A stretch of 64,000 nucleotides of DNA, taken from assembly GCA_033439295.1 (NCBI GenBank), contig JAVTLE010000023.1, positions 4,376,530-4,440,529 of the forward strand, in the 5' to 3' direction. Positions 11-63,786 of the stretch are shown here, in pieces. A program made the translations under genes and the position numbers. Positions within the stretch are counted from its first letter, which is position 1; every line of letters starts with the position of its first letter. The notes under the pieces were generated by a model, which was not told the origin of the DNA, made no database searches, and saw only the letters and a program-made list of their open reading frames with translations. Origin of the DNA: Deuterostichococcus epilithicus (Eukaryota; Chlorophyta; Trebouxiophyceae; Prasiolales; Stichococcaceae).

Positions 11-3000
11 AATGAAGGATGTGGGGCGCTCAAAGGCGGAGGTGGCGGCTGAGAAGGTGATGCATTTTGTCCGGCATGTCACCCAGTCCTGTATGTTAAG
101 TCGTAATATCTTTCAAGTTGGAGAAAATGTCTTACTAAATTTATTTGTTAATGAGACCTACAAGAAAATGTATCATCGCGCACCTCGAGGAACACTGCTC
201 CCTACTGCTTGATTGCTCCATGCGCAGCTGCCAGGGCAAACAAGCTGTCCGCCTCACGCGGGTGTCCCAGAGCGGTTGGCCTGCATGCCTGTGAATGCCT
301 GCTCTACAACCATTTCGCTTCTCGTGCATGCAGGTCATGAGCCGCGTGCCGGGCGTCACGGTGACGCCGCACCATGGCCGCATCGAGGAGAAGGGCCTGG
401 ACTTCTACGAGCAGTTCCACGTCATCATCCTCGGCCTGGACTCGCTGGAGGCACGGCGCTACATGAACTCCGTCGCCTGCAGCCTGCTGGGTGGGCGACA
501 TTTATCTTCTGTACGATCTTTGCAGCCATTTCTGCATGGTCGACAGGCCTGTTGTCTCCTGTTGCCAGCTGTGCACTACGCTTGTCCTGCAGGGTCTGTG
601 GCTGTCAGCCAGTCCACGCGTGTGTGCAAGCCTCTGCGGCTGAGAGGACCCGCGCCGGCTTCCAGGACCAGGGTTCGACCTCGAGAGCCATGGCAAGCAC
701 GAGCACAGGCCGCTTCAGCCCTGGGGGAAGCATTGGAGGAGGCTTCCCTATGAGCCCCTCGCTTCTGGTTCTCCATGCTTCACTGCATCCCTGCAGAACA
801 CGAGGAGGATGGCAGTTAGAACCTGGCGCTGGTATCGCCGCTGGTGTTGCGGCTGGTGCCAACAGATTGTGGTTTCAAGCGTTTCTGATTCCCTGCGTCC
901 CCTGCAGAACACGAGGGGACCGCAGCCTGGACCTGTCGACGGTCAAGCCGCTGGTGGACAGCGTCGGACCCGAGAAGTAACTCGCGCCTTCAATTGACCT
1001 GCTCCCCTGCGCCACCTGCAGGATACGAGGGAGACGGTAGCCCGACCTCGCCCTCGTCAAGCCGCTGGTGGGCGGCGGCACAGCGGAGTACCTCGTTGGA
1101 TCTCTATCCGGGTTGCACACCGCCCCGCACGTCCCATACATCACCTGATGTGTCTCACATCGCAGAATACGAGGAGGATGGCAGCCCGGACCTGTCGACG
1201 GTCAAGCCGCTGGTGGACGGCGGCACAGAGGGCTTCAAGGGCCACGCGCGCGTCATCATCCCTGGCGTCACGCCCTGCTTCGAGTGCACGCTGTGGCTGT
1301 TCCCGCCGCAGACCAGATTCCCGCTGTGCACGCTCGCAGAGACGCCGCGGTGCGCGTCCACTCAATTCTGACTGAGTGCCGGACTTGATTGAGGCCTCTC
1401 GTGCCATCCTTCCAGTGGCAGAGGGCGCAGTCTTCACGGAATCAGATTGCACGGCCAGCCCCTGGGCGCAGCATGCCCCGCCAACAGACATGCCTGATCG
1501 ACTCTTTGCTGGGAGACGTGCTGAAGAGCACCTGCCCAGCTGAGTTGAGTGCCAGGCTGATCACCGCAGTGCAAGTTTCGTGCGTCAGTCCTGCGCGTTG
1601 ACCTCGCAGCTATCGTCTGCGGGGCGTGGGTTCGACTGACTCATCGGCATCCTACCGCGGCACAGCTGCGCAGCAGGAGCTCGGCACCTGCTGCGACGCT
1701 CAGCGACGCCCCCGACGGAGGCGTGACCCACGCTCGCAGGTCGCCGGCGCACTGCATCGAGTGGGCCAAGCTCATACAGTGGGAGGCGCAGCGCCCGGGG
1801 GAGGACTTCGACGCGGACGTGGAGGAGCACATGCGCTGGGTGTACGAGCAGGCGCTTGCGCGCGCTGGCCAGTTTGGCATCCAGGTGGGCCGGGTGCTGA
1901 AGTTGCGGGGTCTTTCGGCTGAGTCAAAGCGGGTGTCAAAGCCCAGCCATGGGAAACACTTTCATAAGAGTGGCTGGTGAGTGTACCGGCGGGCGCTCGC
2001 GCGCCGGCCAGTTCGGCATCCAGGTGAGCGGTTCTGAGTTGCAGCTGCGGCGCCGGAGTGGTTAGGTCGGGAATGCGTGAGGCCCGTGCGCCAGGACATG
2101 CAAGCCAGAGTGGGGTGCGCCCTGCCGGGCTCGGCAAGCCATGCAGCATCCATGTGCGGTGCCTGCTCAGTGCGATTCAGGTCAACAATTGGTCCTGCGG
2201 CGCGCGCGCAGGGTTTGACGCCCCAGCTGAGGCAGGGCATGGCGGCTCCAGGGTCAGCGCGGCAGGTCCAGAGTCTCACTTTCGTTTCCCCTAATGTGCG
2301 CACAGGGGGTGACATACCAGCTGACGCAGGGCGTGACAAAGAACATCATCCCGGCGATTCCCTCCACCAACGCCATCGTGGCGGCCGCCTGCGCGCTGGA
2401 GGCGCTGAAGCTCATCACCATGGCCTCCACGGGGATGAACAACTACATGATGTGGGTCTTTCCACCCTCGCACACGTGGCTCTGCTTGCAGCTTCAGGCC
2501 TTGTTCGCTGTCTTGAGTGGGTTCGGCTCCATGTTTGCTGGATGCAACGCATACATTTGGCGGAGGAACAGAGGCCATTCCTGTCGTCTGCATGTGACCC
2601 GCCACAAGTCTCATTGCGCATGTGAACCTTCACTTGACACAAAGCCACACCTTGCACACAATGCAACTGTGCTGTGACATGGAAGATACACAGCGCTGAG
2701 GCCATATAAACGCACAGCGTGGCATGCGTGCAAGATGTCTGCCAGAGAGCTCACGCAGCGCAGCAGAGGTCGTCCCTGTAAGACACTATCCGCTGGACTG
2801 ATAACCTTTCTACGCCAAAGGTGCACGTCGCTGAGGGCATCTACATGCACACAGTGGCGTACGAGGGACATGCCTGCCCGAGCGCACAAAAAGCGCAGCA
2901 AAGGTCGTCCTCGTGACACAACATCCCACCGACTCTGATGAACACTTTTGCAACAAAGGTACACTGGCGCTGAGGGCATCTACACGCACACGGTGGCGTA

Positions 3001-4098
3001 CGAGCGGGATGCGGCCTGCCTGGAGTGCTCGCCGGCGGCGCCGCTGGAGGTGGCGGCAGACGCCACGCTGCAGCAGGTGCGGGCTTTCTGCTTCGCAGGT
3101 GCAGCACTGGCCTGCAGAGAACCGACATCAAGGGTGGCGAGGCACCAGGCTGAGCTGCGAGCACGCGGTGGCAGAAGCATTCGTTGCCCTGTGGCACCGC
3201 ACTCCGAACCCTAAACCCTGCGCCGCAGGTCATGGACGCCATCATGGCGGACCCGCGGCTGGGGCGCAGCCTGGCGGCGCCCAGCATCAGCGCCGGCCGC
3301 GATAACCTGTACATGCGAGGTGAGAGGCTGCCTGCAGACTGTGCTATACAGTGCTGTCCATCCAGGTCGTCCTATGCCTTCCAACGTCTGCCAGCTGGAA
3401 TGCCGGCGCGCGCATGGTTCAGGGTTTGGAGGGCGGCTTCCGCTGTCGGCCCAGGCAAACGCTGACAGCCTCGCAGAAATGCTGGGGCCTGCTACAAGCC
3501 ATGCGGCTGCAGGGCTCACCCTGTCCGTGCGCAACCCGCTCGCATGCGGGGGTTGGCGCAGTACCACAGACTGCCACCAAGCAAGGTTGACCCTGTAGCA
3601 GAGGAACCTTTGCTGCTACTCGCAGGCGTGCTGGAGGAAGAGACGCGGCCAAACCTGAACCGTCCCATCGCGCAGCTGGTCGACGGCGACGGCGCTGTGC
3701 TGCAGGTGCAGCAACCCCCTTTTCTGAAACGCCATATGTGGACCTCGGCCCGGGTCCCCTGCACCCTCGCTGTTATTTCTCTGACTTGTCGACGCAGGGT
3801 CCCGGTCCTGCGCCCTGTGCAGTCGTTGCCACGCCAGTGCTTATGCCCACGTAGCAAACAACGGCACCGGCGCTCCTGGCGGGTGCATCAGTGCGACTGC
3901 CTGGCGCCGCAGCGGCGACCACCAGTTGATGCTCGACACCCCGCCCAAGCACCGAGCCCTGGGCGCCGACCCATGCTGTGTGCGTCCCACGCGCAGGTGA
4001 ACGACAAGAAGCTGGTGGGGCCCCTGAAGGTGCGCCTCAAGTTCGCGCAGCGCGGCGGTTCCCCCAGCAGCAGCGGCGGCGGCCCCATGCAGGAGTGA
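11..4098 (+). CDS. UBA3: NEDD8-activating enzyme E1 catalytic subunit (UBA3/ECR1), 5'-partial
   Basis: Adenylates NEDD8 with its partner AXR1/APPBP1, forms a thioester on its catalytic cysteine and passes NEDD8 to the E2 UBC12, so activating cullin-RING ligases. Exon chain deduced: <11..56, 334..490, 1166..1349, 1740..1884, 2306..2451, 2959..3076, 3229..3319, 3626..3705, 3997..4098; phases agree throughout. Visible in order: [28 protein letters not shown] (adenylation domain), [15 protein letters not shown], the zinc pair CFEC, the catalytic cysteine in [27 protein letters not shown], the second zinc pair CLEC, then a ubiquitin-fold C-terminus with [19 protein letters not shown]. The N-terminal nucleotide-binding GxGxxG part lies before the window. 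Introns carry several degenerate copies of exon edges (see findings). Family assignment is secure; exact junctions are inferred. Confidence 0.93.
790..1095 (+). repeat. three decayed copies of a UBA3 exon start inside its upstream intron
   Basis: The exon beginning at 1166 is preceded by three degraded copies of its first 20-70 bases, starting about 796, 907 and 1023. Each follows its own pyrimidine-rich tract and CTGCAG acceptor-like site. The second copy keeps the stretch encoding [10 protein letters not shown] at base level but has a frame-breaking indel. Spacing is about 111, 116 and 143 bases. Confidence 0.85.
1978..2026 (+). repeat. copy of the 3' edge of a UBA3 exon, donor included
   Basis: The last 45 or so bases of the exon ending at 1884, with the following GT donor, recur about 139 bases downstream with a few substitutions. 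Both copies end in GGCATCCAGGTG. Confidence 0.85.
2203..2245 (+). repeat. copy of the 5' edge of a UBA3 exon
   Basis: About 38 bases resembling the exon that starts at 2306, 95 bases upstream of it, including the preceding CAG. Shared core: CCAGCTGA.GCAGGGC. Confidence 0.75.
2690..2958 (+). repeat. two tandem units before a UBA3 exon (intron end plus exon start)
   Basis: Two units of about 129 and 140 bases precede the exon at 2959. Each holds a copy of the exon start (GCTGAGGGCATCTACA in unit two and in the true exon) followed by a similar intron segment (GCAGCA.AGGTCGTCC) ending in an AAAG acceptor-like sequence, so the duplicated unit spans the intron-exon border. Confidence 0.85.
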
Positions 4099-5121
4099 CG
4101 AGGAGCAGCACACAACCTGGGCGAACGCTGCCGGCGAGCAGCAGGAATAATGCGTGTGTGGCGGGTCATACATGGAAGTATGTGCGCGCTTGTCTGGGTA
4201 CTACTTGTGTTGCACCAGAGGTGCCGCAAAGTTGCTGAGCAGAGTTTGCTGCTGTGGCAGCAGGTGTGTTGGCACAGCACATGGACCATTCGTAACGTCG
4301 TGGTTATCTTCACCCTGCAACTGTTCAATCCGTGGAATGTCCAGTAAATCAGAGGCTGCACCAATCTGCCTGCACACGTTATTGTCTCCCACAATTGCCT
4401 CGCCAATCAAGCTTGCAAACTGGAAACGAAATCACTGGACGTAGGCAGTGCGACACCTGGTGACACGCTGCTGGCGTGATCTGTCTACATGGCCCATGCA
4501 TCATTCGTACTCCTACACCACCCTCAGAGCGCGGCCGATGGGCACACCTCACTGCGCAGCTGAGTGTTGTGTATCTTCCTGATCGACTCTCTACTTGCTG
4601 AGCAAACCGTGCCCCGCCTGGCCGGCAACGTCTCGCGGCATATCACCCGCCTCCAGCGCACAGCGGTGTACAATACCCTCCAGCAGCAGCTAGTCGGCAG
4701 CCAGCAACATCGTGAGCGGTCATCGAGAACAGCGCACTGCGGGGATCAGTACTCGTCACCAGGAATTGGCTCGCCGTGCATGAACCGCGAGGCAATAGTA
4801 AAGTTGGGCTCCGCCCCTAGCGGGTGTCGTGCAAATATGCGGCCTGGCAACGCCGCCAGCTGGTACATCCTGGGCTTGGGCGCGTCAGTGCTGCTTTGGT
4901 AGAAAGGTCCATTCTGCATGCCAACATATGTACGCCACGCCCGTTACTACTCATTCTGACTTTGCGAGGGCGACCATCCGCACTGTCAGACTCACTGTTC
5001 CCGCCGGTCCCACGAATTTGTGACCAAATGAAGTCGCATGGAAGGCGGCAGGTTGCAAATTATGAAGCCTGCCTGCTGACTTAGCACTGTTGTGACAGCT
5101 GCAGGTGCTGCGCTGTCACAC
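4099..5121. other. intergenic stretch between convergent genes
   Basis: Downstream of the UBA3 stop and of the F-box gene that ends at 5122 on the other strand, so it should hold both 3' ends. I see no conserved protein, RNA gene or strong repeat in it. Confidence 0.4.
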
Positions 5122-7518: not shown

Positions 7519-7554
<36 letters not shown>

Positions 7555-10920: not shown

Positions 10921-11030
10921 AACATTTTGACAGGGCTTGCCGTTTCATCGAAAGCGTCACTCACGGACCTGCACTCTCTCACACAGGCATAATTCCTCTC
11001 GATGGAAGGGCAGCTCTGAACAGGCCGCCC

Positions 11031-12072: not shown

Positions 12073-12268
12073 ATGGTTGAACAGCCGTTCTAATAGCTCT
12101 TATGCAACTCGGCTTGCACCTTTGCCCTGTTTGCTGACTACAGTTGTACGCTGCGCAATGCTTGTGCAGCTGTGTGCGTAGGTGTATTGCTGTTACTGGT
12201 ACTTACCTGAAGACTGTAGTTCCATTTCGTAGGTGCTATCCCCTTACGTAGATACCCTCCATTCGCAG

Positions 12269-12466: not shown

Positions 12467-12511
<45 letters not shown>

Positions 12512-13953: not shown

Positions 13954-15941
13954 GTGGCACTCGACAGCATGGTGGGCGCCATTTTACGCCTCCACCCCGA
14001 CCTCGTCGTCATTGGACACGGGCACACGGACCACATGCAAGGGGCGCAGTCGCAGGAATTTTTGCGGCGGGACTGGGTGCTGATCTATGCTACGGCAGTG
14101 ACATGCGCCATCATGATGGCGCGCTATCCGCAGCTGCCGGCCAGCCGGTTCCGGGTTCGTCACTGCGGCACACTGCCAGATCTGACGAATGTGTGTTGAG
14201 CAGCGCAAAGTGCCTCGGTCCTGTAGCGGGCACTAAGAGTATGCCTTGGCTGTGCAGCACATTGATCATCCTTGCAATTGTACAAACAAGTCATGTTGTT
14301 GCATGCTCCCCTAGTTCTCCTCCTTTGCATGCTTGCGGCACAGCAATCACAGTTGTGCATCTGGCATCACAGGTGGTGCCGCTGGACGAGCCCTACAGGC
14401 TGGACATCCCGCGCGTGCCCGACGCACGCCTGGTTCTGACGATACGGGACGCTGGCCACTGTCCTGGCAGGTGCTGTGCGTCATAACCTTCGAAATTCGT
14501 TCTTTCCAGCATCGCAGCGCAACAAGCTTGATCCTAGCGCCAGCACCTTCATTATCTCGGACGCTGGTTTTGGCTGTTCTGGGAGTCGGTCCAAAGCTGC
14601 TACCTGTGGCCATGCAAGTAAGGCTCTGCAAACACATTGCCTACTGTCGATTGAGAAACGCATTCGTGGCAAAGCCGCATTGTGCCGTGCCAAGCAACAG
14701 CACCTCAAACGGCTGTCAACTCCCATGCAGCGCCGTTGTGGAGATCACCGACGAGGTGGAGCCGCTTGACTCGGACCAGCGCACCTTCATCTACACCAGC
14801 GACTTTCGGGTAGAGCCGCAGCTGCTGGCAGCAATCGAAGAGGCGCACGACGGCCGCGCCATTCGGCCGCGTCGTCGTGGACACAACAGGGCTGCGGGCG
14901 TCTCGGCGGGATGCGGGCCGCGCCCACCGGCGCCCCTCGCGCCAGGTGGCGGTGCAGCGTGCGCTGCATGAGGCGAGTTCCTGGGTGCAGCGCAGCCGGC
15001 AGCCGCATGCGTGGCCGCAGCCGCAGCACCAGGCGCAGGCAGTGCCGCAGCCACAGACTTCTGTGGAGCCGCAGCCGTCCGTAGAGTCGCAGCCGCAGCG
15101 CCCGGGGCCGGCAGAGCCGCGGTCACAGGCTTCTGCAGGGCCGCAGCCGCCCACAGGGTCGCAGCCGGAGCCGCAACGCCCGGCGCCGGCGGAGCCACAG
15201 GCTCAGGCTTTTGCAGCACCAGCAGCGTCGCAGCCGCGGGCGCAATCACACCTGCAGCCGCCACAGCTTCAGCCTTTGGCGTCTGCGGCGGCACAGGCGG
15301 GTCTAGAGGCGCAGGCGCAACAGCAGTTGCAGGCACGGCCGCAGCCACAGTGCCAGGCGGTGACAGAGCCGCAGCCGCAAGCGTTTGCACCGCTGCAGCC
15401 GCAGGCGCCCTTGCGGCTGTAGATTCTCGTGAGTGTATACATGCTCGGGGGCGAGGACCTGCTGATGCAGCTCGCCGCCGAGCTGGGCTGCCAGGTGTGC
15501 ATGCTTTATGGCGGCGCCTGGGCTACCATGGTGGTGGCGGCCGCAGCGGCCGGCGGCAAGATGGCAGCCAGCTTCAACGATAGCTTCAGCAGCGATGCTG
15601 CTGAGCTTGCCGCCGACCTGGTCATCGTGGCTTTGTCTCCGACGCAGTTGAAGGCAGAGCTAAACAAGCCGCGGTTGTGCAGCAGTTTTGACCGTGTGCT
15701 GGTTCTGCCGGCGGCGGGCTGGTACCGCCCCCGCGATCGCGCACATGGCCGAGTCACAGTCGTCAACTGCGACTTCAGCGGGCACGCTGACAGCGCGGAG
15801 CTGCAGCAGTTTTACAAGGTTTGCAAGCCGCTCTGGATCATGCCGCTTGAACTGGACAGCAGTCAGCCCGGCGGAGCGCTGTGGCAGCTGATAGCCCGCC
15901 TTAAGTATGGTCCAGCCGCGCCGCCTGAGGCACACCAATAA
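13954..15941 (+). CDS. beta-CASP metallo-beta-lactamase nuclease, SNM1/Artemis-like
   Basis: Expected role: DNA repair nuclease of the SNM1/Pso2/DCLRE1 group, in the nucleus. Exons: 13954..14154 (VVIGHGHTDHMQG, the HxHxDH metal motif), 14373..14470 (RDAGHCPG, matching the DANHCPG motif), 14731..14984 (TFIYTSDFR, like the family's HTGDFR; then VVVDTTG, like LDTT), and 15423..15941 (SVYMLGGEDLLMQLAAELG, GWYRPRD, VVNCDFSGHADSAELQQF, the beta-CASP histidine region). Between TSDFR and VVVDTTG the reading frame shifts by one base near 14860. The 438-base segment 14985..15422 is open in frame and Pro/Gln-rich and may be intron or coding (see findings). Family call is good; membership of a particular SNM1 branch is not decided. 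Confidence 0.75.
14985..15422 (+). repeat. Pro/Gln-rich low-complexity segment, open in frame
   Basis: Imperfect tandem repetition of CCGCAGCC-type codons gives a Pro-Gln-Ala-rich reading of 146 codons, closed by a TAG that coincides with the TGTAG acceptor. A GTGCAG donor at 14985 and that acceptor would remove it without changing phase. Confidence 0.65.
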
Positions 15942-21002: not shown

Positions 21003-24000
21003 TCATGGGCCAGCGTCCGCAGGCTCCAGGCCAGAGGCTGACGCCGCCGAGGCACTGCCCGGCGCGTTGCCGGCGGCCGCCGCCGCCGGCTCGTGGAACT
21101 TGAAGGACACCACGATGCAGGAGATGTTGTCGTTGCTGCCGCGCTGGAAAGCCTCGTTGGTGAGGCGCACCGCCGCCTGCTCAGCTGTCGGCATGTTCTG
21201 CATCGGAAAGAAACAAAGTCCGGATCACGGTGCTAGTCGCATCAGCGACACTGCCGTGCCCGCCGTTAATCAGCACGGTCTGGAGGGATTGGGGCAGCTG
21301 GGACTTTTCGCCGGAGGTGTTGCTGGGCCGTCAGGCACGTCTGAGGCCAGTCAGTAGCAGGTCCATGGTTGAGGCAGATGCCGCCATGCAGGAGGTGCGG
21401 AGCTGCGGCCCGGAACTCGTCGAACAGTCAGTATTCTGGAGAGCCAGGCGGTGAGGCCAGGTGCAAACATTTCAAAAAACGAATGGCGCAAACGTCGCAC
21501 CCGGACCATGCTGATCGCGTCCTGGTTGCTGATCACGTCCCAAAGGCCGTCCGTGGCCATGATGAGCAGCGTGTCGTCGCCCGTCAGGTTCTCCTCCAGC
21601 ACATCGGGCTCAGCGACCACGTACTTCTTCAGCAGCCGGTCGCCAAAGGCGCGCGACACTGCGGCGCGGCAAACAGAAGTGGAGTCCCAGTAAGATGTTG
21701 CATATTCCAAGATTACCCGTCAGGTGTTCCTGTGACACACCCGCCTCCACGACCACAAATCGTTTTAGCAGCCCGGAGGCCCTCAGAAGAGCGCGGCACT
21801 GCGTGTGAGCAGCGCAGCCTCCGAGAAGGAACTTGCAGCATGATGGCTTCGAGGCGGTTGTGAAGATATGAAGCCTTTGAGCGATGATGGGGAGGTGCGC
21901 ACGAGCTTCTTTGATTTCCACCCGGCTAATCCAGCATGTGCTTCGTCAGAGCCAGTCGCCGAAAAGGGGGAGACAGTGCATGCTTCGGCAGGCAGAGGCC
22001 GGAGGGTCGCTGCCTGTCGGCACCGACACCAGCATTGCAGACAATGTGAGACTCGCAGGGGCCCTCTGCTCCTTGCTGGCAAACTACCTTGCATGCAACC
22101 CGCCACGGGCCTCCAGATGTTGCAACTGTGCGATTGCCCATTGCTGAAGCCTGAAGTTCGGATCGGCACACACAACCTCGAGCCTCCAGAGGCGGTGCCC
22201 GCGCACCTGCGAGCACGCCGCCGACGCGCCAGGTGCCGGCCCACACAACGACGCCGCCGGCCTCCTCGATGCGCTGCCGCTCGTCCGCACGGTTGGGCTT
22301 GTGGTCCTCGCTCATGGGATATGCTGCGAGCACAGCAGGGGGGGCAGGCTGAAGACACAGAAGGTCTGAGAGATTGCGCGCACACCCGGCCACTGACGGC
22401 AGCTACTTGGTTACATCTCCAAGCTGCCGCCCGTGCGCGCAGACGGGGCGGTTGTTCCTCGCCCATGGGGTACGATGCAGGAAGTAGATGGCACATGAGG
22501 TGGGCAGCCGGCTCGGAACTGCTCTGGCCCTGTGCAGCAGTCGACGTCGCTTTGTCGCAATGGCGCCGTTGGCAGGGCAGTCCGTCAGACTCGCTCTCCA
22601 GGTGCATGGCACAGGGAGTCAGCACGAGTAAGATGCAAGGCTGGGTGCTGGCATCGCCAGTGGCACCGGTGCTGCGGCGCCGCAGTGGCGGTACGCCGTT
22701 CACCCGCACAGCATGGCGCTCGCGGGCTGCGCAGTCGAACGGCGGCCACTCGCGCCGGGTGTGCTAACCACATAGACAATTGGCAGCAACACATGGGACG
22801 ACACGCCCCCGCGGCACCCGCACCTTTGCCGCTGCGGGACAGCACCGCGCGCGAGTCGCCCACGTTGGCAACGATGAGCCGGTCCTCCAGCAGCACCGCC
22901 GCGACAGCGGTGCAGCCGTCATCCTTCTTGGAGTTCGCCTCGTCTGCCAGGTACGCCTTGTCGGTCTCCACAAACGCCTCCACTGTTTGGAGGGAACGGG
23001 CGACGTTGAGTGACCGGCAATGATGGAAACCCTGTCGAGACCTTGTCGGAGTGGCGTGGGAGACCTCGTCCGCCAGGCGCGCTTCAGTCTCCCACAGACG
23101 CGTGCACCGCTTCAGGGCAGCACAGTGGTCTCGTCAAGGACCTCATGGGACGGTCAAGTGTCATCCATCTCGGGCGCGGCCTCGTGCCCCGGATGCGCTG
23201 TCCGTCTCCACAACAGCCTCCACCAATACAAGTGGACACGAAGGTGTAGAGAATGCAGGAGCCAAATCTGCAGCCGAGAGCGCCGCCCGCACTGGCAGCA
23301 CACAATGGCAGCGGAAGCCGGAGAGGACAGCTACGGAGCCAAATCTGCAGCCGAGAGCGCCGCCCGCAATGGCAGCACGCAATGGCAGCGGGAGCCAGAG
23401 AGGACAGCCACGGAGCAAGGCGCGGACCCAGGGCGTTCTTGATGTCGGAGTCAAACTTGTTGTTTGACTTCAGCGTCTTCCACAGATTCTCCTGGACGAA
23501 CGCTGCTGCGCCCGGGCCTCCGTGGCCTGCGCAGACGCCGTGCCAGTGTTCGAGTCGCTGGCCATCAGATCTGGGCCGAGAGGAGAGCGGGCGGCAGAAG
23601 CATGCGTGCAGGCAGCTCAGGCGGCACTGTGGAATCCAATTCCGAAACCGAAGCACAGGCGACAAATATTCACGAAAAAGGTGGACAGGACATGATCCAT
23701 GCCTCAGGAGCAGCATCGGCGCACCGTCAAAGACGCCAAAGAAGCCCACTGTGCTGCCATTTGTGGGATGCTGCGAGAACTGCAGGACAGCACACACACA
23801 CCGGGTTGACAGCTGCTCAGGCACGGAGCGCGTGCGTGGCCCCCTTCGCCGGACTCGTGAGTTGTGCATAGCAATGCATCGCGAACTGGGCAACATCACG
23901 GCACATGTGCAGCACACCTTCGCCTGCAGGAAGTCCTCCATGCTGGCCCTTTTGCCCCTCAAACTGCTGTAGCCAAAGCTGACCTTGCCATCTTCCCTGC

Positions 24001-25448: not shown

Positions 25449-28400
25449 TCAGAGTGCGCCGCCAGGCGCAAGGCCGCTGGCGCCGCCTGGCTTGAGCGCA
25501 GAGGCGCCCCCGGGCCCCGCGCCGGGCGCAACGCTGCCGCTGCCGGGCGCCGGACGCGGCAGGTCCGGCGGCCGCTCCAAGCTGTCGTAGTGCACCTGTG
25601 GGGTGAGATGGACCGACAGTCACCAGCATGCATCGGGTGTGTCTCAGACAGCATGCTCCGCAGGAAGAACAGCAGGGACTTGTCTGGCTGTGCAACACCT
25701 GTGCGGGCTTCCGCAGCAGCAGCCTTCCCTCCGCCGGGCACAGCACAGCGGCTGCGCGGCTCTGCGAGACAGGGTGCCGCCACGGGGGGGCGAACGGCGC
25801 ACCACGAAGTTGTCCTTGCGGACGGCGTCCCAGGTGGCGGTGTCGAACACCAGGTAGGAGCCGCGCTCGAAGCGCTCGGTCTTCATGATGGGCTCCGTGT
25901 TTGGGATGCGCGTCAGCCACAGCTTGAACTCCTGCGGGTTTGGAAGGGTGGGCACTTCGAAACGGGATCAAGCGAGGCTCGGGCAGCAGGTGCGCGGCCT
26001 TTTGGAACCACACCTGGCACTGCGGTCCCAGTGACATGGTCGAGACCGCGCAGCGGGACCTGTCGACCCTCCCTCTCCTGCCCCATACACGGGAGCCCGG
26101 ATGTGGGACGGCGACCGGCAGCGCATGGGGCAGTGACTTCGGGGGCCTGCTGCATCACCCAACGCAGGGACCGATCGCGGGAAGGGGGTGCACCTTGTGG
26201 AACCACCACTGGCGGGCGGACAGCTCGTCGGCGGCCAGCAGCTGCGCCTCGTCACCCGGCATGGAGTAGAAGATGTAGAACAGCGTGTCCTGCTGGAACT
26301 TGGCGAAGTAGCCCGGCTGCAGCCGCGGCGGCGCGTGCAGGTAGCACGCAGGCACCTGCAGGCCAGAGCGGCACTGTCTCAGAAGCTCGCGACGACAGAG
26401 ACACGGTGACGTGGCTGCGGCCGCGGCGGCGCGCGCAGGTAGCATCAGCAGACACCAGCGTGCAGTGGCGGAACACTTGGCAGAGACGGTGATGGACACG
26501 GCCTGCCCAGGCTGCAGGCTGGCTGCTGCTGGGCCCCTGCAGCTGGATGCCCCCAGGAGCGCTGTTTTGCGGATAGGGCTTGCGCAAGCCAGCCCTGTGG
26601 AAGGCGGAATACCCTGCTCACACTGTCCATGAAAGACGAGCCACCTCGGTGTGATGGCCCTGCCAGGCGGAGCCGCAGCCTCCGCAAACATGCAGTGCAC
26701 GCCGAGACCACCAGGGCAGGGCAACCAGGGCTCGGCAGCGTGGGACGGTCCCTAAACCCTAAGACCCAAGGCCGCCCACCTTGAAGTCGGGCTCCGCCTT
26801 GAGCGGGCCGTCCGCCCACGGCGACGCAAAGGTCTTGTGCAGGTTGTCCGGCGAGTTGAGGTTCAGGCCCAACGTCGTGAGGTCCGTGCCCAGCGCCAGC
26901 GTCGTCAGGTCCGGGTCCGTCATCCGGATGACGGACAGCAGGCCCAGCAGCCCGAAGCGGTCCGGCTGGCCGGGGGCGGCGCCGCCCTTGCCGCCGGGGG
27001 ACCCGGCGGCTGCGGTGCCACCGCGGGGTTCACTTGCGCCGCCGCTGCCGGCACGCGCAGCGGCCTGCTGCGCGTAGAACCGCTGCATCTGGTCGTAGTT
27101 GGGGTGGCCCGGCGCGAGGCCCGCCGGCGGCCCGCCGCCACCGCCGTCCGGCTGCTGCTGCTGCTGCTGCGCGTCCCCGCTGAAGTCGCCGCCCGGCTGC
27201 AAAGCCCGCAGCTGCTGCGCCTGCCCCTGTGGCGCACGTGCAAGCGTGAGCAAGCTGGCACGGGGACAGGATGTGAATAACAGGGGCGATGTGTGACCGA
27301 GCTGCGCCCAACACGGCTACCACAGGCATTCTGATGGTTGTCTGTACCTTGTGCTGCAGGCCCCGTCCCCAAACACAAGTGTGCTGTGACGCAAGGCAAC
27401 AGTGTCATGCTGTGCGCCAAGGCACCATGCCAGCTGAAGTCAGTCGGGCCATGCACCCAAGGAGTACAGACCGAATGAGGGTGCTGGTTTGGCATTCTGA
27501 CACACACCTGCCCGCCTGCAAGGTCCGACTTCGTTGCCTCCCCGCCCTCGCTGCTGGGCGACGGGCCGAGCCGTGGCGCCCCCGGCAGCGCGGGGAATTC
27601 CTCCGGCTGCAGCAGTCAGAAATGCGAGTTGTTGTGAGCCCTGGCAGATGGTTCACAGAGCGCACACATCAGTACGATACAGCAGCGGCTTGTGCGGTGC
27701 TACATCAGTGAGGAACCTCGTGATGTGACAAGTCGCGCGCGGTCTTCACCCACCTGCATATTGGGACTTGCCAGCAGACCCCAGTGTGAAGCCTCGTGTT
27801 GCACTAACATTCACCTGCATGTTGAACTCCTGCCCCTTGCCCAGCGACAGCGCGACATACGGGTCCGGCCCGAGCGTCGAGGACGCTGCGGTGATCGGCG
27901 GCGCCGGGCCGCCCAGGGCGCCGCCGCTCGTCATGCCGCCGTCGGCGGCCACGCCCGCCGGCCGCGCCAGCGCGCCGCCGAGCGACGGGAAGTCCGACTC
28001 GTCAAAGGTGATGGGCGCATCCGGCTTCCCGCCCCCGCCCCCGCCCTGCGCACAGCGACATGGGAACGATCAGCAACCGCAGTCATGCGCCTGGCAGATC
28101 ACAGTGTCAAGTTGGTTACAACCCCAACGGGGATGCCTCCTTGTGCAGTGGTGTGGAGCGCAGTTTGGGGCGCAAGCGGGGACCAGGGCACACGAGACCA
28201 GGCCTTGACAACAATGCTGTGCTCACGTGTCGGCCGGCTGCCTGGCTGAACTTCCCGCCGGCCGCAGCGGCCATGCTGGTGTTCTGGCTGCCGCCGCCGC
28301 CGCCGCCGCCGCCGTCCAGCATCAGCATGAGGTCGCCGCTGGCATGCAGGATGCCGCCGGGGCCGCCGGGGCCCAGACCCCGCGCGGCCGGCGAGCCGCC

Positions 28401-36097: not shown

Positions 36098-39700
<3,603 letters not shown>

Positions 39701-43700: not shown

Positions 43701-46700
43701 GCCGCGGTACTCCTCGCACGTCACCATCTGCGCGGAGTCGAGTATTGCGCTCATCAAGTTGCTCGCATGCACGAAGAGCGTCTGAGTGCTTGCTTCCGCG
43801 CAGGAGCCAAGCAGCCTCTGCAGCCAGTTGTGCAGCACTGGCCCCTGCTCAGAAGACGAAACAGCGGTAGGCACCAGTCACAGGCATGGCCGCCAGGGCA
43901 GCTGAGGGGCAATCACACGGCCTTGAGATCCGGATTCCCTCCAGCAGCTATCATCCCCCCTCCATCCTTGTCCCCCCTGGAACAGCACCTGGTGCTCGTC
44001 CAGGAAGTGGGAGTGCATACGCGAGGGCGGTCGAATCTCCCGCCGCGGCCGCTGGCTGGCGGACTGCGCCGCGGCGGACTGCGGTACGAACAGCTCGCCG
44101 CCGCCCGCGCCATTGGCCAGCACGGCGCTGCCTGTGTGGCGCTGCAGGCGCGGGGGACGGAGTGCAGGGTTTCAGCAGGGTGTGACAGGGGTGATGGCGT
44201 GGAAGACCTTGTAGAGCCTTCAGGGCCAGCCACTGGCGCTGTGCCTGCTCAACCACAGCAGCTGCCATCGCTGGCCCATATCTGTTCGGTGCCATCACGC
44301 CGCTGACCGCCACCACAGCCTTGCTGCAGTATCGATAGTTCGACATCTCAGTTCCAGCATCCCCACCTGGCGCAGCGCCTGCTCGAAGATGGCGACCGCC
44401 GCTGGGGAGGGCGCCCCCGCCGGCAGCAGCGGCTGCTGCTGCGGCTGCTGCGGCTGCTGCAGCGGCGGCTGCAGCGCCGGCTGCGGCCCCGGGCCGCTGG
44501 GCTGCCGCTGTGCCGGCGCCGCCGCAGGGTGGCCGCTGCCGCTGCCGCCGGGCGGCGGCTGCGGCCTGGACAATGGGACCGCGCCCTGCCGGGCCCGCTT
44601 GGCGCCGCGCGGCCGGGCCTCGTAGCTGTCGCCGTCCTCGAACTCGTCAAAGTCCTCGTCTTCCTCCTCGTCTTCGTCGTCGCTCGTGGCCGGTGACCTG
44701 CTGGCAATCCGTCGAACATTGGGGAGTGGGCCCGCAAACTGGGGGTAGGCCCGCAGACTGGGCACTGTCAAGCGAGTTCCAGCTCAACAGCGTGCTCGTC
44801 CCCCTCCTCATTATCCTCGTTGCTCATGGCGACCCGAGGCGCGCCACGGTGAAAAGAGCTCGAATCGAAGCACGCCTTGCATGCGTTGCATGCCATCGCT
44901 TCGCTTGCTGGCTGTTACTGCTGCATACAACCTCGACCTTCCTTGCCGACGCGCGGCATGCTGCGCCGAACAGAAGGGCATGCTGAGCGCCAGACGGGTG
45001 CTGTGCCTGGGCGGCCAGCGTGGAGACAGCCCAAGGCCGCGCTGCGCGGGACACCCATGAGCGCCCGGCGGGCACGTCGCAAGCACGGCGCCCGACACTC
45101 CGTGACTGCAGAGCACCCTGACATTTTACCCTAACAATGTGCAGGGGAGCGCACCGCCGGCGGGCGGGTGCGGCTGCTGCGCGCTGGCTGGTGCGGGGCG
45201 GCGGGACAGGCGCCGCGGCCGCGGCCACGCCGCCTGCGGCGCCCTGCGCGAAGGCCTGCGGGAAGCGCCGTGCTGCCAGCTGCATCTTGTAGTGCTCCAG
45301 GTACCTGCAGGCCAGGGAGGGCCCAGCTCCCCGTGAGCAGCCAGCGGTCAGCGGCTGCAGGATTGGTCGCCTCGCCAGGCATGCCGCCGTGAGCAGCTGA
45401 GGCAGCGATCTGCGGGGGACCAGAGTCCTGGTCGTGACACTCGAGCTGCGAGTGCAGGCGCTCAGCGTGCCGGGATGTTGTGCTGAGTCTGCAGGAGGCA
45501 CACGCTCATCGATGTCGGGATGCGTGTCGTAGGCATGCAAGTGCTGCCACACTTGATGGCATTCATCCGCCGCCCTGGCATTTTCCGCAAATCTCTGTCA
45601 AAATTGCTGTCAATGGTTACAACGAGGCACGCACTTGCCGCCGAACTTGACAGTTTTCCAGCCATCGTCTGCCTTGCGGTCCGGGTTGACCAGGCGCTTC
45701 AGGAAGATCGAAAAGGCGCTCGGCGACTCGAAGGTCCGGTACGCGCCGCCGACTGCGGAGCGGAAGGAAGTTGTTGGGCCGGCGTGGGCAGGCGTCGGCA
45801 CAGGAGAGTTTCGATAGGAGGCCTGGCAGGACGCAGTGATCCCGTTGACAGAGCATCGAGCAGCCGAAGCTCAAGGTACTTAGAGCTTCTGCAGAAAGCG
45901 TCGTCACAGGAGCATGCTGGCGCCTCCGGGACTGGCGAGAAGAGGCACAAGCAGCAGGTCAAACTGAGCAGAGGCACCAGCGGGCTGCGAGAGTGGTGGG
46001 CGACGCACTGTGCGCGGCGATCTTGCCCTCCGCTGTCAGATTCGCCAGCGTCTGCTGCTGCTTGTAGTCCACCGACAGCACGTCCTCGCCCGGCCACAGC
46101 AGCCCCTCCTCGATCAGCGTCTGCAATCGATAACGCTTGAGGATCACTGTCCCAATTCTGTTCCCTTGTCTTGGAAAAGTCGACAGACAGCGCGTCCTTG
46201 CCCGACGCAGCAGCCCCTGGAGCAGCGTGGAGCACCGGGCGGCGGGACCCCCTGGAGCAGTGTTGCACCGGGGTGTCTAGGGGCGAGTGGCAGCGAGGAA
46301 AGCCCGTCCAATGCAGGGGGACTGGAGGAGATTGCAGCCGTTTCTTGGGTTGAGAGGTTGCTGATGCAGCTCCGGCGATCAGCGCAAAGCGCAGACAGCC
46401 TGCAGCCAGGCTTCCTGGCAGCCGCTTCACAAGCAGACGAACACCGCGTCGACACATCAACCTGCCATGCTCGGCAGGTCGATGTGTCGGAGGAAGCAGC
46501 GAGCACCTTCAGGTTGATGCCGCTGCCTGCTCGCGAGCGGCCGCCCGGCGGCGCGGCGGCGCGCTTGCGGGCGGGCGGCGCCCCGTCCATCACCTTGCGC
46601 CGCTGCGCCATCGCCGTCGCACGGGCATCGCGTGCCTGTGGGGCCAACACAGTGCTTGACGGCCGCGGCGCATTTAGCAATCCTAAACGACCATGGGAAA

Positions 46701-50635: not shown

Positions 50636-52137
50636 ATGGCGTTGCGGACGTCCTCCAACAAGATTCTGCGGCACGTGTCACTGAGAGCCGCAGCTGCGCC
50701 ACTGCAGCATGCGTGCCGCATGTCATCTACAACCGAGGCGCAGTTGCGCGAAGTGTCAGCAGTACAAGCCATGCTGGTGAGCCTGCCTGGTGCAGCGATG
50801 GTTGCAAGCAACGTCCTGCCTGTGCTGATTTGAAACGCTCACTGTCGTTTGAAAACACTGTCATGCTAGGGACGGCTGCAAACCTTGCAGGAGGATGCCT
50901 TGGAGGGCGCCAGCTACATTAGGGACTCTGCACAGCAGGTGCGCGCAATGCAGCTGACCCACTGGCTCTGCGCCTGGCAAAATCGTAAGACGCATACCAG
51001 TGTCTGCTCAGAGGGCACCAGATGGATCGTTTGTGGCGCATAAATCGTAGTAGAGTTGTGCTGCTGGGAAAATGCCATTCGTCCCACAGCCGTCCGGATG
51101 ACAGCCGGTGCCAGTCGCTGCCAGCGGCAATGCCAAAACTTCAGGCGATAGCAGCAGTGGCCACCCACCCGCGCGTGGCCGCAAAAATGTTGCCCATGCT
51201 GGACTGCAACCCAGGTCGGGCAGTCAGAGACATTTCATATCTGCCAGCGGCCGCAGCAGGCCTGTGTCGCAGATGCCGCAGGCGCTGCTGTAGGTGGTGT
51301 ACTGGAGCGTCTCTCAAAGACCAGAAAATTTTCCGGAGGGTTTTTGCACGACCTGTGACCGCATTGTTCGCCGCAGGCGCTGCTGGAGGCAGACCCGTCG
51401 TCACGGGAGCCACAGGACAGTTACCTGGCCCGATATCAAACGGTGGCGCGTGACGAGCTGGACGTCGCACTGTCACAGTACCAGGCGCTGGAAGCCTCGC
51501 TGGGTGCGCCTTACCTGAACCCTCAACTCTGATTCCTCCTCGCTGGCGGCTCCCCACGCTCCCCACGCTGCTGCTGCTTTGAGGCTTGCGGTCTTTGGAA
51601 CTGTGAAAGGAGCCAGAGGCAGGCACGAGGGGCTCAGCAGTTCTACTTGTGTGTATCTGATCTGTATGCATAATATACCCTTACCAGCAGCCGGGCAGCC
51701 CGGAGGGCACGTGTTGACGATGCCTGCAACCCTGAACGGCGGCCGCGTGCCCCTTCCAACCAGCACGTGAGGCTTGCGACGTCACAGCTGCATGGCAAGC
51801 AAAGACCCCACCCGCGCGAAGGAAAGTAGCAGCCACTTGCTGATGGTTACGTGACCCCCCGAAACCTCTAGGGGAGGAGGAGCTGCAGCGGGTGCAGCGG
51901 CAGGAGGACTTCAAGCTGCTGAAGACGGCGGCCAACTCCATGCTGACGCGAGACAACCTCAACGAAGCGCTCAGGTTTGTCATTCCGATGCATGGCAGCG
52001 CACGTCTGCTGCATTCCTGTGATGCTGGCTTGGGCGTTGCTTGCATAAATCCCTGCTGTTCGTTTTGGTGATCTGCAAATCAACATCTGCAGGCGGATAT
52101 CGGAGAAATTGCGGAAGAACTGGGCAACCTGCGCTGA
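50636..52137 (+). CDS. small helical protein, possibly organelle-targeted, unrecognised
   Basis: ATG at 50636 opens MALRTSSNKILRHVSLRAAA, an Arg/Ser/Ala-rich, acid-free start suited to organelle import, although translation could also begin at a later Met (MSSTTEAQLREVSAVQAML). Next exon about 50891-50938 (EDALEGASYIRDSAQQ), then about 51376-51499 (ALLEADPSSREPQDSYLARY, VARDELDVALSQYQALEASL), about 51871-51974 (EELQRVQRQEDFKLLKTAAN, LTRDNLNEALR) and a last one to 52137 (RISEKLRKNWATCAD). Predicted mostly helical, perhaps coiled coil, about 150 residues. No family recognised; some junctions are guesses. An echo of the third exon's start lies at 51275-51294. Confidence 0.45.
51275..51294 (+). 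repeat. copy of an exon start, 95 bases upstream
   Basis: GCCGCAGGCGCTGCTGTAGG against GCCGCAGGCGCTGCTGGAGG at 51370, CAG acceptor included. The copy reads a stop codon (TAG) where the real exon has GAG. Confidence 0.75.
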
Positions 52138-52930: not shown

Positions 52931-55802
52931 GATGATGTACGCGCTGCTGTTCGTGCAATTCTCTCTGGAGTCCTTTTACGACCCGGCGCGTCGGGCTCTG
53001 ACGACGGAACTGGTGCGCGTCCTTGGCTGCTCAACATCACTGAGCCCAGTCGCCGGGCCTGCGCTACCGTTCCCCATGTTCTGGTCGACGAGGCACCGCC
53101 CGCACGGCAGCGACTCAAGACCCACAGCACGGCACAGTGACAATGCTGGTGAACAGCTGCCCCCGCGCAATGGGTGTGGCATGCTGATGCAAAACAGGAT
53201 CGATATGATTTGTCTTATTTACCTCGTCTGATCTTGTTCAGGTGCCACGAGACCAGCTGCACCTGGCCGCGACACTGGACGGCTTTGCGTGGTCCTGCAT
53301 GGCTGCCATTGGGTCGGCAGTGGGCGGCATCGCGGTTTCAAGGCTCGGTGAGCGACCGCTTGCCTGGCACACAGATGAGGCTTGCTTCCCAGATTCGGAG
53401 GCCCTCTTCGTCCAACATCGCAGGGCACTGCCCAGATGACAACCTAGCTTGACAGCTGAAATTTTCTCAGAGCAGTGGAGCATATGCTGCGAGGTGTACC
53501 ATGCTGACCTTGCTGACGCAAGTGAGCTTAGCTTGCCTGTCTGGGATGCCACAATGGAACAGCCGGGCCGAACTGGTGTGTGCAGGCACCAGGAGCTGTT
53601 TCCTCATCGATGCCGGGACGTACTTAGCGGCAGCGGGCTGCGCGGCGCTCGTCTGGGCAGCTGCCCGACAAGCTGCAGAGTCTTCAGCTGGAGACACGAA
53701 GTGCGCACACCGTCGCAACCTGCTTGCTTGCATGGCAGCCACTCTGCTCGACACTCTGTTCGCGCCGGGCATTCGGTGAGCCTGCCCCGTGCATGATCCT
53801 CTGCAGTGCGCTGGCCAGAGCTCAGACAGCAATCACTGCTGCCCGCAGAACATCCACCCTTTGCAACCATCCCGCAGGCAGGGCGGCGAGAAGGATGGCA
53901 GGGAGTACAGTAGGCTGCCGAGCGGCGGCGGCGGCGGCAGCGGTGGCGAGATCGGTCGCCGCTGCAGCGGCAGCTACCCGCGCCACCGCGGCCCTCCGGT
54001 GGACCTTCCCAGCACGCCGAGCTGCGACGCAGCGTTGGGCGGTCTGTCGGCAGAAAACCCGCAGGCGCCACCTGCGCAGTACCGCACCTCGGGGCGGCGG
54101 CGGCGAGCAGATGGCGGCGCGGAAGGCGGCATCGCAGGCGAGGTGTATCAGGCGGCCGAGGATGTGGAGCAGCGGTGCGGTGCGCTCTTCGAGGTACTGT
54201 GCCGCCTTGTAGGTTTGCATGGTGACTGGTATAATCAAGTACGTACGAAAGCAACAGCACTCTGCTTGCGACTGCGTCATGGGCACGAGCAATGTTCCCT
54301 CGACCCTGCTGAATGCTTTTGCTTGCCGCATCAGTGCATGCCACTCATCTTGTACGAGCCTGTGTGTGTCCGAAGGCCGGCACCGCCAAGCTCTGCCTCA
54401 CAGCGCGGCTCCCCACCAACTCCAGCAAGCAGCCAAGTGTTCCACTGCGCAGGGGTGGCGCTACATCAGCGCGCCGGGGACCAGGGACGTCGCTGTCTTT
54501 GCCCTCATCAAGGGGTCTGGCGCGCTGCTGTTGGGGGCGTCCGACGTCTTGTATGTGAAGTGAGTGCTTTTGCAGCCGGAGCTCCTCCGCTGCATTTCCT
54601 CCCGAATTCAATGCCTCTTCGACTTTGTTACCTATATCTGACACTCTCACAGCCACCCGTCCCGTGTCTGGCACCCTTCCGCATGCGCCAGCCATGTGCT
54701 CGCGCTGCTCCCACCACAGGCCAGGGCTCCTGTGCTGGCTACCGGCTGGCGGTGCGGCGGACACTGCCCCCAGCAGGCACATCTGCTCGTACACCTGGTG
54801 TGGCTCTGCGGCATAAACCTGCCTCGGTCATCTGTAGTGTCTGTCTCGCATCGTTCCCCCTGCCGCCCGCAGGTTTGCGGACGTGCCGTCGATGCAGGTG
54901 CGCGACAGCGCCAATTCGCACGGCATCATCTACGGCGCAATGGGCGCCGGCGCCGTGCTTGGACCGCTGCTCGCCAACCCTTTCGTGCCGTCCGAGTGAG
55001 TGAACTGCCCCTCTGGGCTTTTCCTCCGGTTTGGGTTTCGGCCGCGGCTCGCCATCCCCTCCAGATGAAAGCCACCGAGTGCGCTGTCGTGTCCCTGACT
55101 GTCACACTGCGTGACTGGCATTGGCTGGACTTGCCAGTGCGACGGTGCGGCTGCCCTCCTTGGATCAGAGGGCCTGTCAGTTGGATGAAGGACAGATGGG
55201 AACCCTCTGTACACTCTGCCGCAGGCGGTCGCACCTGCTTCGCGCGGTGGCGGCCTCGTTTCTCACTCTGCTGGCGGGCTAACTGGCCATGGCGGCTGCG
55301 CCCAGCATCGGCTGGCTCGTGCCCAGCGTCGTGCTCCGCTCCACGGGCTCGTCGGTGCTGTGGGTCTACTCCACGCTGCTACTGCAGCTGGAAGCGGACC
55401 CGGCGTTTCAGGTGTCGTCCAGATCAGCGCAACTTACTCCAGTTTGAAGGGATGCAGAGTTGATGGCTCCTCGGTGTTGTGGGTGTTCTTGTCGCTGCTG
55501 CTGCACCTTGAAGTAGACCCTGCTTTCAGCTGCTCACAGCCGCATTCATCCAGCCTGAGAACTGCTGAAAGGGGCTTTTCCAGGGATGGGTGTTCACGCT
55601 GGGAAGAAGTTGCACAGCCACAGGGATTCAGGAATGCGTGTTTTCCTCTTGCAGGGGCGGGTGTTTGCGCTCGAGATGGCGGCGTACGTTGTCATGGAGA
55701 CGCTGTCGAGCTTGTGGGGCGGCGTGATGTTTGACGATCTGAACTTCTCGACACGATCGGTGGCGCTGCTCATATCAGGCATTTCAGTGGCCGTTTCACG
55801 GT
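52931..55802 (+). CDS. major facilitator superfamily transporter (MFS_3-like), N-terminus not found, in-frame stop
   Basis: Membrane transporter; substrate unknown. Readings in order: YALLFVQFSLESFYDPARRA, VPRDQLHLAATLDGFAWSCM then AAIGSAVGGIAVSRLG, RSCFLIDAGTYLAAAGCAAL, a Gly/Arg-rich cytosolic loop (EYSRLPSGGGGG, EVYQAAEDVEQRC), DVAVFALIKGSGALLLGASD, HGIIYGAMGAGAVLGPLLAN, SIGWLVPSVVLRSTGSSVLW, RVFALEMAAYVVMETLSSLW then GGVMFDDLNFSTRSVALLIS. This matches the second part of the N-terminal and the whole C-terminal half of MFS_3-type exporters. A TAA at 55280-55282 stands in frame inside a helix (LLAG stop LAMAAAPSIG). The first helices are missing. A terminal exon from about 56183 to 56371, ending PAQGGMPV, may follow the donor at 55801. 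Possible pseudogene. Confidence 0.72.
55460..55530 (+). repeat. copy of the 3' edge of an MFS exon
   Basis: Reads DGSSVLWVFLSLLLHLEVD beside the true TGSSVLWVYSTLLLQLEAD (exon ending 55411). Many differences fall at third codon positions and the frame is kept. Confidence 0.88.
55571..55606 (+). repeat. copy of the 5' edge of the next MFS exon
   Basis: CCAGGGATGGGTGTTCACGC resembles GCAGGGGCGGGTGTTTGCGC at 55651, acceptor included, offset 71 bases. Together with the copy at 55460-55530, this one intron carries echoes of both flanking exons. Confidence 0.75.
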
Positions 55803-59280: not shown

Positions 59281-60225
59281 GCTCGTTTAGTCAACTAATA
59301 TTGTCTAGTTGCCAGCAATATACCAGAGCTTTCTGGCGTTTGATGTGCGTATACGAGCTGACCAAACATGTCACAGGGTTGCTTGCGGACTGTCGGCGCC
59401 GCACATTCAGCAGCTGGCCCGGCGCGACCCGGAACCGCTGCGGCTCTGGCCCCGACAGCTTTGTCGACTCCGACCGCTGCTGCTGGGCGCACACCACCTG
59501 CAGCCACAATTGGATACCTTGAGCACACAGCAGCAGGCGCTTGCCGTCGTGGCAGCGGCACGACGCGATGTTCCGCATGCGGCATGCATGCGCTGCGGCA
59601 TTCGGCACCTGCGACACGCAGGTGCTGGTGCGACCTCTGGGGGCTCTGCAGGTGAGCTGATGCGCCTGCAAGCTGGACTGGAGGCTGCCAACCATCATGC
59701 TGCAGTGGAAAGGCTGGGCGTAGATAAAAGCGAAGGGTGGGTGCTGGACACAGGTGGCAATCACTATGCAGCCGTCTGCACTGATGCAGTAGTTTGGATC
59801 GAAGTGTCTAGTGCCAAAACGGACAATTGTAACGCCGAAATTGGACCAAAATTGACGCACTGACGTCGACGATCCGAATGAAATGCCCGCCCTGCAGCCA
59901 AAGCTTGAATCATTTCAACGACCCTTCAGCACTCATATGAAGTTGTGCAGGCTCGGTCTTGCATTTCTGCACCTTCTAGACCTTGCGCACGACAGTTTGA
60001 TCTCGGATCTGCAGTGCAAGCTTTGTGCCGGCAGCTTTTGTCACGCTTTGTGAGGCAAGATCTGAGAGTCACTTTGCACGACTGGTGGCCGAAGGGCCCT
60101 CCGATATACCGACAGAGCTGTAGAATGCCAAGCGTACATACACTCTGAAGATATGGAACGGCTGCAGGCCCTCTTTCTGCTGGTCTGAAGTCAAAGCTTC
60201 CATCTCGACTTAGGGCCTCTGCAAC
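59281..60225. other. stretch between divergent genes
   Basis: Should contain the 5' exon(s) of the GST-N gene and the promoter and 5' leader of VPS26. No RNA gene or repeat recognised. Confidence 0.35.
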
Positions 60226-63200: not shown

Positions 63201-63786
63201 CATCGTGTACTGCAGGATGTACCTGACGCCATACGACCTGACACCGACGTACCGCAGCGTGCACAACAAGTTTTCCGTGCGCTACAGCCTCAACCTGGTG
63301 CTCGTCGACCAGGTCCACCTCTCGTGTCTGCTGCTTCGCTCTCGTCAATCGGCAGCGCCAGGTCTCGGAGCCTCAGGGCTGCAATCGAGTCGGACGCGAG
63401 GTTGGACAAACTGAGGGCCACATATGGTCATGTCGTTGCCTTTTCTCTTGCGCTTTCACTCGCCGTAATACCCGGCGCCCATCTCCTGCCGCCGCGCGGT
63501 TTTGCGACTGAACCTTCTGTTGACTCGGCCATTCGCAGCAGGACCGGCGGTACTTCGTTTAGTAGGAAACTAATCTTTGACAAGAATTGTCCGTTGACTC
63601 GGCTGTCCGCAGGAGGACCGGCGGTACTTCAAGCAGCAGGAGATTGAGCTGTACCGGGCGCCCGAGCCGGAGGAGGGTTTAGAGGCTGCGTCACCCGGCG
63701 CCGGCGCCGCGCCGCCGCCGTCGCTGCCGCCATCGCGAACGCCGGCGCGGGACGCGGCCGCCGCTGCAGGCGCTGCCGTTCCTTGA
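60226..63786 (+). CDS. VPS26: retromer subunit VPS26
   Basis: Arrestin-fold subunit of the retromer core (VPS26-VPS35-VPS29), sorting cargo from endosomes. Nine exons: 60226..60228, 60530..60691, 60933..61050, 61476..61587, 61977..62094, 62486..62642, 62944..63037, 63216..63312, 63613..63786; 1035 bases, 344 residues. The start is inferred: ATG at 60226 is directly followed by a GTGAGC donor, and joining it to the acceptor at 60529 gives [11 protein letters not shown], like the family's MNYLLGAF. Motifs: [160 protein letters not shown]. The tail after the core is Ala/Pro-rich. Length is normal for the family. Confidence 0.97.
61052..61098. repeat. three short direct repeats after a VPS26 donor
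   Basis: The phrase TTCCCTACAGTG, with small changes, occurs three times in a row directly downstream of the donor at 61051. Confidence 0.85.
61703..61756. repeat. cluster of palindromic GGTACC/CCATGG motifs
   Basis: In a VPS26 intron, GGTACCATG occurs at three places and near copies in both orientations lie between them, giving several overlapping small inverted repeats. Confidence 0.85.
63519..63558 (+). repeat. copy of the last VPS26 exon's start with its acceptor
   Basis: TGACTCGGCCATTCGCAGCA then GGACCGGCGGTACTTC; the true junction at 63595-63630 has TGACTCGGCTGTCCGCAGGA then GGACCGGCGGTACTTC. Offset exactly 74 bases, so the duplicated unit spans the intron-exon border. Confidence 0.95.

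Follow-up and report, generated by a model that had tools for sequence, protein, structure and literature searches.

Intron lengthening is usually ascribed to transposons and random indels. Introner elements consist of one sequence repeated in many introns, and the copies described here, which we call echoes, resemble them in being repeated DNA in algal introns. However, introners are dispersed across many introns, whereas each echo in four introns searched matches its own neighbouring exon only. In this whole-genome search, the matches among the best candidates scored (counts that are lower bounds) were the introns themselves and the adjacent exon, which bears out the separation from introners drawn in an earlier, sequence-only reading of this DNA. 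The genome paper on Chlorella variabilis NC64A by Blanc et al., from 2010, reportedly describes short repeats confined to one place, with non-repeated DNA between them and often overlapping exons. These would be similar exon-overlapping local repeats. If so, a phenomenon of this kind is already known, and the present additions are the adjacency controls, the neutral decay, the anchoring at junctions and the comparison with plain tandem duplication.

Direct repeats within introns also appear in passages on newly gained introns of Daphnia, where they are attributed to staggered double-strand breaks and proposed to lengthen introns (PMC4202315). The repeats shared by exon and intron in those passages are 4–12 bp long and belong to new introns, whereas echoes measure 22–95 nt (about 190 nt in one case) and lie in introns not known as new. 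Fill-in of staggered breaks produces small direct tandem duplications of tens of bp, according to excerpts of a second study (PMC8355091), and is a plausible source of echo events, although such duplications are head-to-tail and most echo pairs are not recognisably so. Tandem genomic duplication of AGGT can create introns, as stated in part of a third report (PMC3443670); it likewise duplicates exon sequence locally and leaves splice sites in the duplicate, but it makes a new intron, whereas an echo is an existing border copied into an existing intron. Titles and opening lines of abstracts contained no description that we recognised as exon-edge echoes, from which the absence of one does not follow, and passages of other green-algal genome papers mention nothing like them.

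Sequences and Gene Models

The analysis covers 304 kb of a genome of 46.8 Mb in 21 contigs, namely the window (the whole 64-kb stretch of DNA under analysis) and 24 ten-kb samples. The window and 16 samples (L005–L020) form the first set of 224 kb, and the other eight samples (L021–L028; 80 kb) form a hold-out, for which the gene model was fixed beforehand. Like the sequence-only reading, we infer that the organism is a green alga. Gene models were predicted ab initio from the sequence alone by a self-trained gene finder, with the first set as training data, and replaced an earlier model whose weak penalties led to over-called tiny exons. On the first set, the trained model converged on donors CAG/GTG and acceptors YGCAG/G (the slash marks the splice site), and predicted 445 exons with a mean length of 149 nt and 396 introns with a median length of 239 nt.

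Scores below about 26 in alignments of exons with adjacent introns are in the range of the controls. A detailed set of 35 pairs was taken from the 54 local pairs of the first set and hold-out together; in each, exactly one copy contains more than 3 exon bases and the offset is at most 400 nt. Exon–exon, border–border and intron–intron pairs, and two pairs at offsets of 457 and 467 nt, were left out. By crude binning the 35 pairs derive from about 29 source borders; pairs that share one exon are not independent, and the pair statistics assume independence. A sensitive self-scan (5/−4 scoring) gave 192 self matches versus 117 cross-locus matches at its lowest threshold, with an uneven inverted control, and was not used further.

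Exon-Edge Copies in the Window

Self-blastn of the window detected same-strand local pairs at UBA3 (three introns), NOT2, an MFS-like gene and VPS26. Alignment of exons with adjacent introns added PP2C (scores 37, 31 and 28) and an MPND-like gene (45 and 33, with weaker matches of 27, 26 and 24). These are genes for which the sequence-only reading had claimed echoes; at a further one, the '50636 gene', the claim is reduced to a weak pair of 20 nt. Pfam matches among the predicted window proteins comprise UBA3 (ThiF, E2_bind), PP2C, NOT2_3_5_C, JAB and Vps26, and two MFS-like pieces gave no Pfam match. The features are as follows, with exons as predicted.

1162–1231, plus strand: UBA3 source border, last 4 nt of the intron and start of exon 1166–1349
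793–846, plus strand: UBA3 echo 1 of the start of exon 1166–1349, 80% identity, offset 369
904–963, plus strand: UBA3 echo 2 of the same start, 90% over 61 nt, offset 258; its intron was among those searched genome-wide
1018–1086, plus strand: UBA3 echo 3 of the same start, 80%, offset 144
1837–1906, plus strand: UBA3 source, end of exon 1674–1884 and first 22 nt of the intron
1978–2042, plus strand: UBA3 echo of the end of exon 1674–1884, 81%, offset 141
2223–2241, plus strand: weak UBA3 echo of the start of exon 2306–2451, source 2317–2335, score 28
2956–3012, plus strand: UBA3 source, start of exon 2959–3076
2683–2873, plus strand: two successive UBA3 echoes of the start of exon 2959–3076, 74%; full tandem, homologous over the whole period of 135–139 nt
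22918–22982, minus strand: PP2C source, start of exon 22824–22982
23160–23222, minus strand: PP2C echo of the start of exon 22824–22982, score 37, offset 240
22423–22472, minus strand: PP2C echo of the exon part 22273–22321, score 31, offset 151
26315–26359, minus strand: NOT2 source, start of exon 26194–26355
26413–26459, minus strand: NOT2 echo of the start of exon 26194–26355, 85%, offset about 98
46178–46218, minus strand: MPND-like echo of the exon part 46066–46107, score 45, offset 111
44792–44830, minus strand: MPND-like echo of the exon part 44652–44690, score 33, offset 140
51275–51294, plus strand: weak 20-nt copy in the '50636 gene' of 51370–51389 (95%), at the start of exon 51377–51503
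55346–55414, plus strand: MFS-like source, end of exon 55289–55411
55465–55532, plus strand: MFS-like echo of the end of exon 55289–55411, 78%, offset 119
63590–63650, plus strand: VPS26 source, last 23 nt of the intron and start of exon 63613–63786
63516–63576, plus strand: VPS26 echo of the start of exon 63613–63786, 88% over a 41-nt blastn block and 77% over 61 nt, offset 74

The copies had been described as ranging from nearly identical in VPS26 to strongly decayed in UBA3. Neither end of that range holds: the VPS26 identity is that of the 41-nt block listed above, and UBA3, with its best echo at 90%, is not simply the most decayed.

Repeats of other kinds were also observed in the window. 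A predicted PP2C intron contains, at 23258–23416, a true head-to-tail tandem duplication of 77 bp (2.1 copies, 93–94% identity), and non-coding pairs like this one are mostly full tandems. A 72-bp in-frame repeat at 15016–15226 lies in the predicted coding exon 14991–15404, which is rich in glutamine, proline and alanine. A (GCA)n tract of about 95 bp at 36956–37050 reads as poly-leucine in a predicted minus-strand gene, the model of which may be wrong there.

Controls and Hold-Out

The analysis confirms that adjacent introns do contain same-strand copies of exon edges, which occur only locally, are non-coding and are found outside the window as well. Border-spanning queries covered every usable intron of the first set and the hold-out. 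With queries spanning the 3' splice site, 40 of 522 matched the adjacent intron at a score of 28, and none of 3,091 length-matched introns from other genes did so at the same score; the corresponding figures for 5'-side queries are 13 of 522 and 0.16% of 3,091. In the inverted control the rates were 0.2% (3' side) and 0 (5' side). Looser thresholds gave an excess over control of about 8–12% on the 3' side and 3.5–6% on the 5' side.

In the first set, at scores of at least 30, the exon start was found in the adjacent upstream intron in 24 of 394 cases and the exon end in the adjacent downstream intron in 10 of 392. Matched introns of other genes gave 0 of 1970 (starts) and 0 of 1960 (ends), non-adjacent introns of the same gene 0.11% of 3619 and 0.11% of 3583, the reverse-complemented adjacent intron 0.5% and 0, and shuffled introns 0. 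The hold-out, at the same score, repeated the result for exon starts (7 of 163 versus 0 of 815 and 0 of 1456 in controls, and 1 of 163 in reverse complement). Exon ends matched there in 1 of 162 cases versus 1 of 810 and 1 of 1439, so that the 5' side alone is not significant and is not replicated in the hold-out. In the first set, the comparison with shuffled and non-adjacent introns that the sequence-only reading had proposed came out with adjacent introns above the controls. Chance or low complexity as a source of the matches is ruled out by the non-adjacent, reverse-complement, shuffled and other-gene controls.

Self-blastn of the first set gave 40 direct pairs of at least 42 bits at offsets of 50–500 nt; inverted pairs of that strength comprised eight within 20 bp, which are hairpin-like, and one beyond 20 bp. 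The hold-out yielded nine local direct pairs, each of which joins exon or border to intron, and a further pair separated by 1,023 nt; inverted pairs were absent at 38 bits or above. Among the 45 local direct pairs of the first set (at least 38 bits, at most 600 nt apart), 25 link exon or border with intron; the rest are eight exon–exon, five intron–intron, three border–border, three exon or border with intergenic and one border–exon, with no intergenic–intergenic pair. At longer range, 13 direct pairs of at least 42 bits lie 1–10 kb apart within one sample (window and L005–L020).

Anatomy of the Echoes

The echo lies in the upstream intron in 24 of the 35 detailed pairs and in the downstream intron in 11. 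Echoes of 3' splice sites outnumber those of 5' sites in these pairs (24 vs 11) as among the 522 introns (40 vs 13). Nearest copies are offset by 62–174 nt (mean 119.5, n = 28) and farther ones by up to 369 nt. The previously proposed distance of 70–190 bases is close to that of the nearest copies but is exceeded by farther ones and by one PP2C copy at 240 nt. In several series the second copy stands near twice the first offset (114/236, 141/270, 161/321 and 138/273), and a UBA3 series runs 144/258/369; a series in L026 (87/151) has no constant period. In L017, exon 1284–1488 (region 1000–1850) has two echoes in each neighbouring intron with a near-regular spacing of 129–161 nt. The same sample contains a perfect 31-nt mid-exon copy in the adjacent intron (2127–2157 and 2247–2277) with unrelated flanks and no junction.

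Aligned blocks are mostly 20–95 nt long and reach about 190 nt in one full-tandem case. The splice junction lies inside 29 of the 35 blocks (21 of 24 upstream, 8 of 11 downstream), in line with the earlier statement that copies often span the border, whereas blocks drawn at random from exons would do so in 53% of cases; the p value of 4e-5 for this comparison was computed on 30 of 35. Non-coding pairs number 5 of 40, fewer than the 39–66% expected from detection bias; the range reflects a weight of 3 to 1 or of 1 to 1 given to exon pairs because they stay detectable for longer. Introns that contain echoes exceed the others in length, with a median of 411.5 vs 228 nt (26 of 559 introns). This agrees with the suggestion that echoes lengthen introns, but part of the gap is length bias, as the length-weighted mean of all introns is 437 nt.

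Decay and Coding Constraint

The copies in the 35 pairs diverge by 0–31%, mostly 10–28%. Mismatches amount to 17.2, 17.0 and 22.0% at codon positions 1, 2 and 3, 18 of 20 gaps are 1–2 nt long, and the gap rate in echo blocks is 0.99 per 100 nt. The codon-position mismatches and the short gaps indicate that the echo drifts as non-coding DNA while the exon copy stays. A duplicated alternative exon, or a coding function of the echoes, is rejected on the same figures, which reveal no coding constraint and no intact frame, and the idea that echoes seed alternative exons finds no sign in these data.

In the final few nucleotides upstream of the junction, echoes resemble the tail of the true intron; their identity to it is about 0.5 at positions −5 to −14 and at background beyond −15. 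The end of the previous exon shows no resemblance to the upstream flank of the echo other than the CAG consensus (n = 21), and origin from spliced mRNA is rejected on this basis.

Origin of the Echoes

We give an even chance to the reading that echoes stem from repeated copying of DNA at exon–intron borders, on the same strand and over very short distances. Short segments, mostly of 20–95 nt and usually including the splice junction, would be copied 60–175 nt away into the neighbouring intron, either through template switches made while DNA is replicated or repaired, or through patch repair at staggered breaks. Selection would hold the exon copy while the intron copy decays neutrally, each event would lengthen the intron, and repeated events would produce ripple-like series. 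The series of near-constant period and the full tandems (UBA3 2683–3012, L028 5871–6017 and L011 4648–4940), as tandem duplication would give, count against this proposal, as does the junction anchoring, which random copying into introns does not predict.

The direct orientation, the closeness of the copies, the near-constant periods and the full tandems suit plain head-to-tail duplication of units of 60–175 bp across exon borders followed by neutral decay, in which the intron half is lost to sight as both of its copies drift while the exon is fixed; junction anchoring is also expected from such duplication. The small tandem duplication at exon borders suggested earlier is therefore matched in locality, strand and position, but its simple head-to-tail form fits most pairs poorly. 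Homology over the whole period is seen in few pairs. Among the 28 nearest pairs, 26 have a homologous block that covers less than 65% of the spacing, and 15 of these are at least 84% identical. Because a spacer-homology z-score proved weak on simulated duplications, pairs were compared instead by how much of the spacing they cover at matched identity, and simulated head-to-tail duplications were passed through the same blastn step. With an indel:substitution ratio of 0.12, at most 15% of simulated pairs combine such identity and coverage at any age from 0.05 to 0.4 (at age 0.5, detection fell to 2 of 259). The difference narrows at ratios of 0.25–0.8, with 12–54% such pairs (one extreme setting gave 80%, from 5 detected), but these ratios predict too many gaps (1.8–3.5 per 100 nt, about twice the observed rate). 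They also mostly anchor less: 32–56% of simulated blocks start within −25 to +2 of the junction (none of the 5 detected at the extreme), and 19 of 24 observed upstream-intron pairs do so (13 of 18 for nearest copies only). The non-coding pairs, with 3 gaps per 74 mismatches, likewise speak against high indel ratios, and 24 of 26 identity-matched pairs fall at or below the 18th percentile of the tandem simulations, with two at the 98th–99th. Taken together, coverage and simulations imply that most echoes either arose as spaced copies or go back to old duplications in which the exon block has been kept similar. Plain duplication, a live rival in view of the fixed periods and the anchoring, is rather unlikely to be the general origin.

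The second of these options, in which gene conversion from exon to echo maintains the exon block of an old tandem duplication while the intron half drifts, would explain how constant periods and anchored junctions can go together with spacers that cannot be aligned, and short perfect runs with unrelated flanks (31 of 31 nt in L017, 22 of 22 nt in L026) count in its favour. Longest-run p-values are slightly lower than under simulated uniform decay (means 0.474 vs 0.561, one-sided p 0.057), but matches show no significant patchiness (Fisher p 0.46, from 32 of the 35 blocks, the three dropped blocks with fewer than 3 core mismatches being the most tract-like; the row 'window 776' is invalid, as its two stretches overlap), and we consider conversion doubtful. 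Retention for function, with echoes serving as splice-site decoys or as alternative exons, might be read from echo acceptors that are often still CAG, with identities of 0.91, 0.82 and 0.95 at −3, −2 and −1 (n = 22). These identities are biased by block choice, mismatch within blocks near the junction (0.14–0.16) differs little from that further in (0.15–0.29), and the nearly equal mismatch at codon positions 1 and 2, only slightly below position 3, also opposes a function, which is very improbable. An RNA-linked process would suit splice-junction anchoring, but the flanks described above oppose insertion of mRNA-derived fragments, the four searched introns oppose an introner-type mobile family, controls at or near zero oppose chance similarity, and the divergence of the copies is unlike that of an assembly duplication. 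This last group of explanations is largely contradicted by the results, copying from nascent pre-mRNA excepted, and is given hardly any weight.

For the local copying that we favour, junction anchoring is the strangest part, and selection by itself does not account for it. The anchoring leads us to raise, as a speculation that is probably wrong, a border-directed process in which breaks or stalled forks at exon–intron junctions, perhaps coupled to transcription or splicing, cause the exon edge and its splice site to be copied repeatedly about 120 nt into the adjacent intron. Splice borders would then seed intron growth by a route that is not plain tandem duplication, a mobile element or a product of spliced mRNA.

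Significance

Exon-like sequence in introns can mislead gene prediction. Echoes also constitute a directional record beside exons, with the exon as a nearly unchanged template and the echo as a neutral clock. Read gene by gene in one alga, this record would allow measurement of how introns grow, how splice sites compete and how often short-range duplication occurs.
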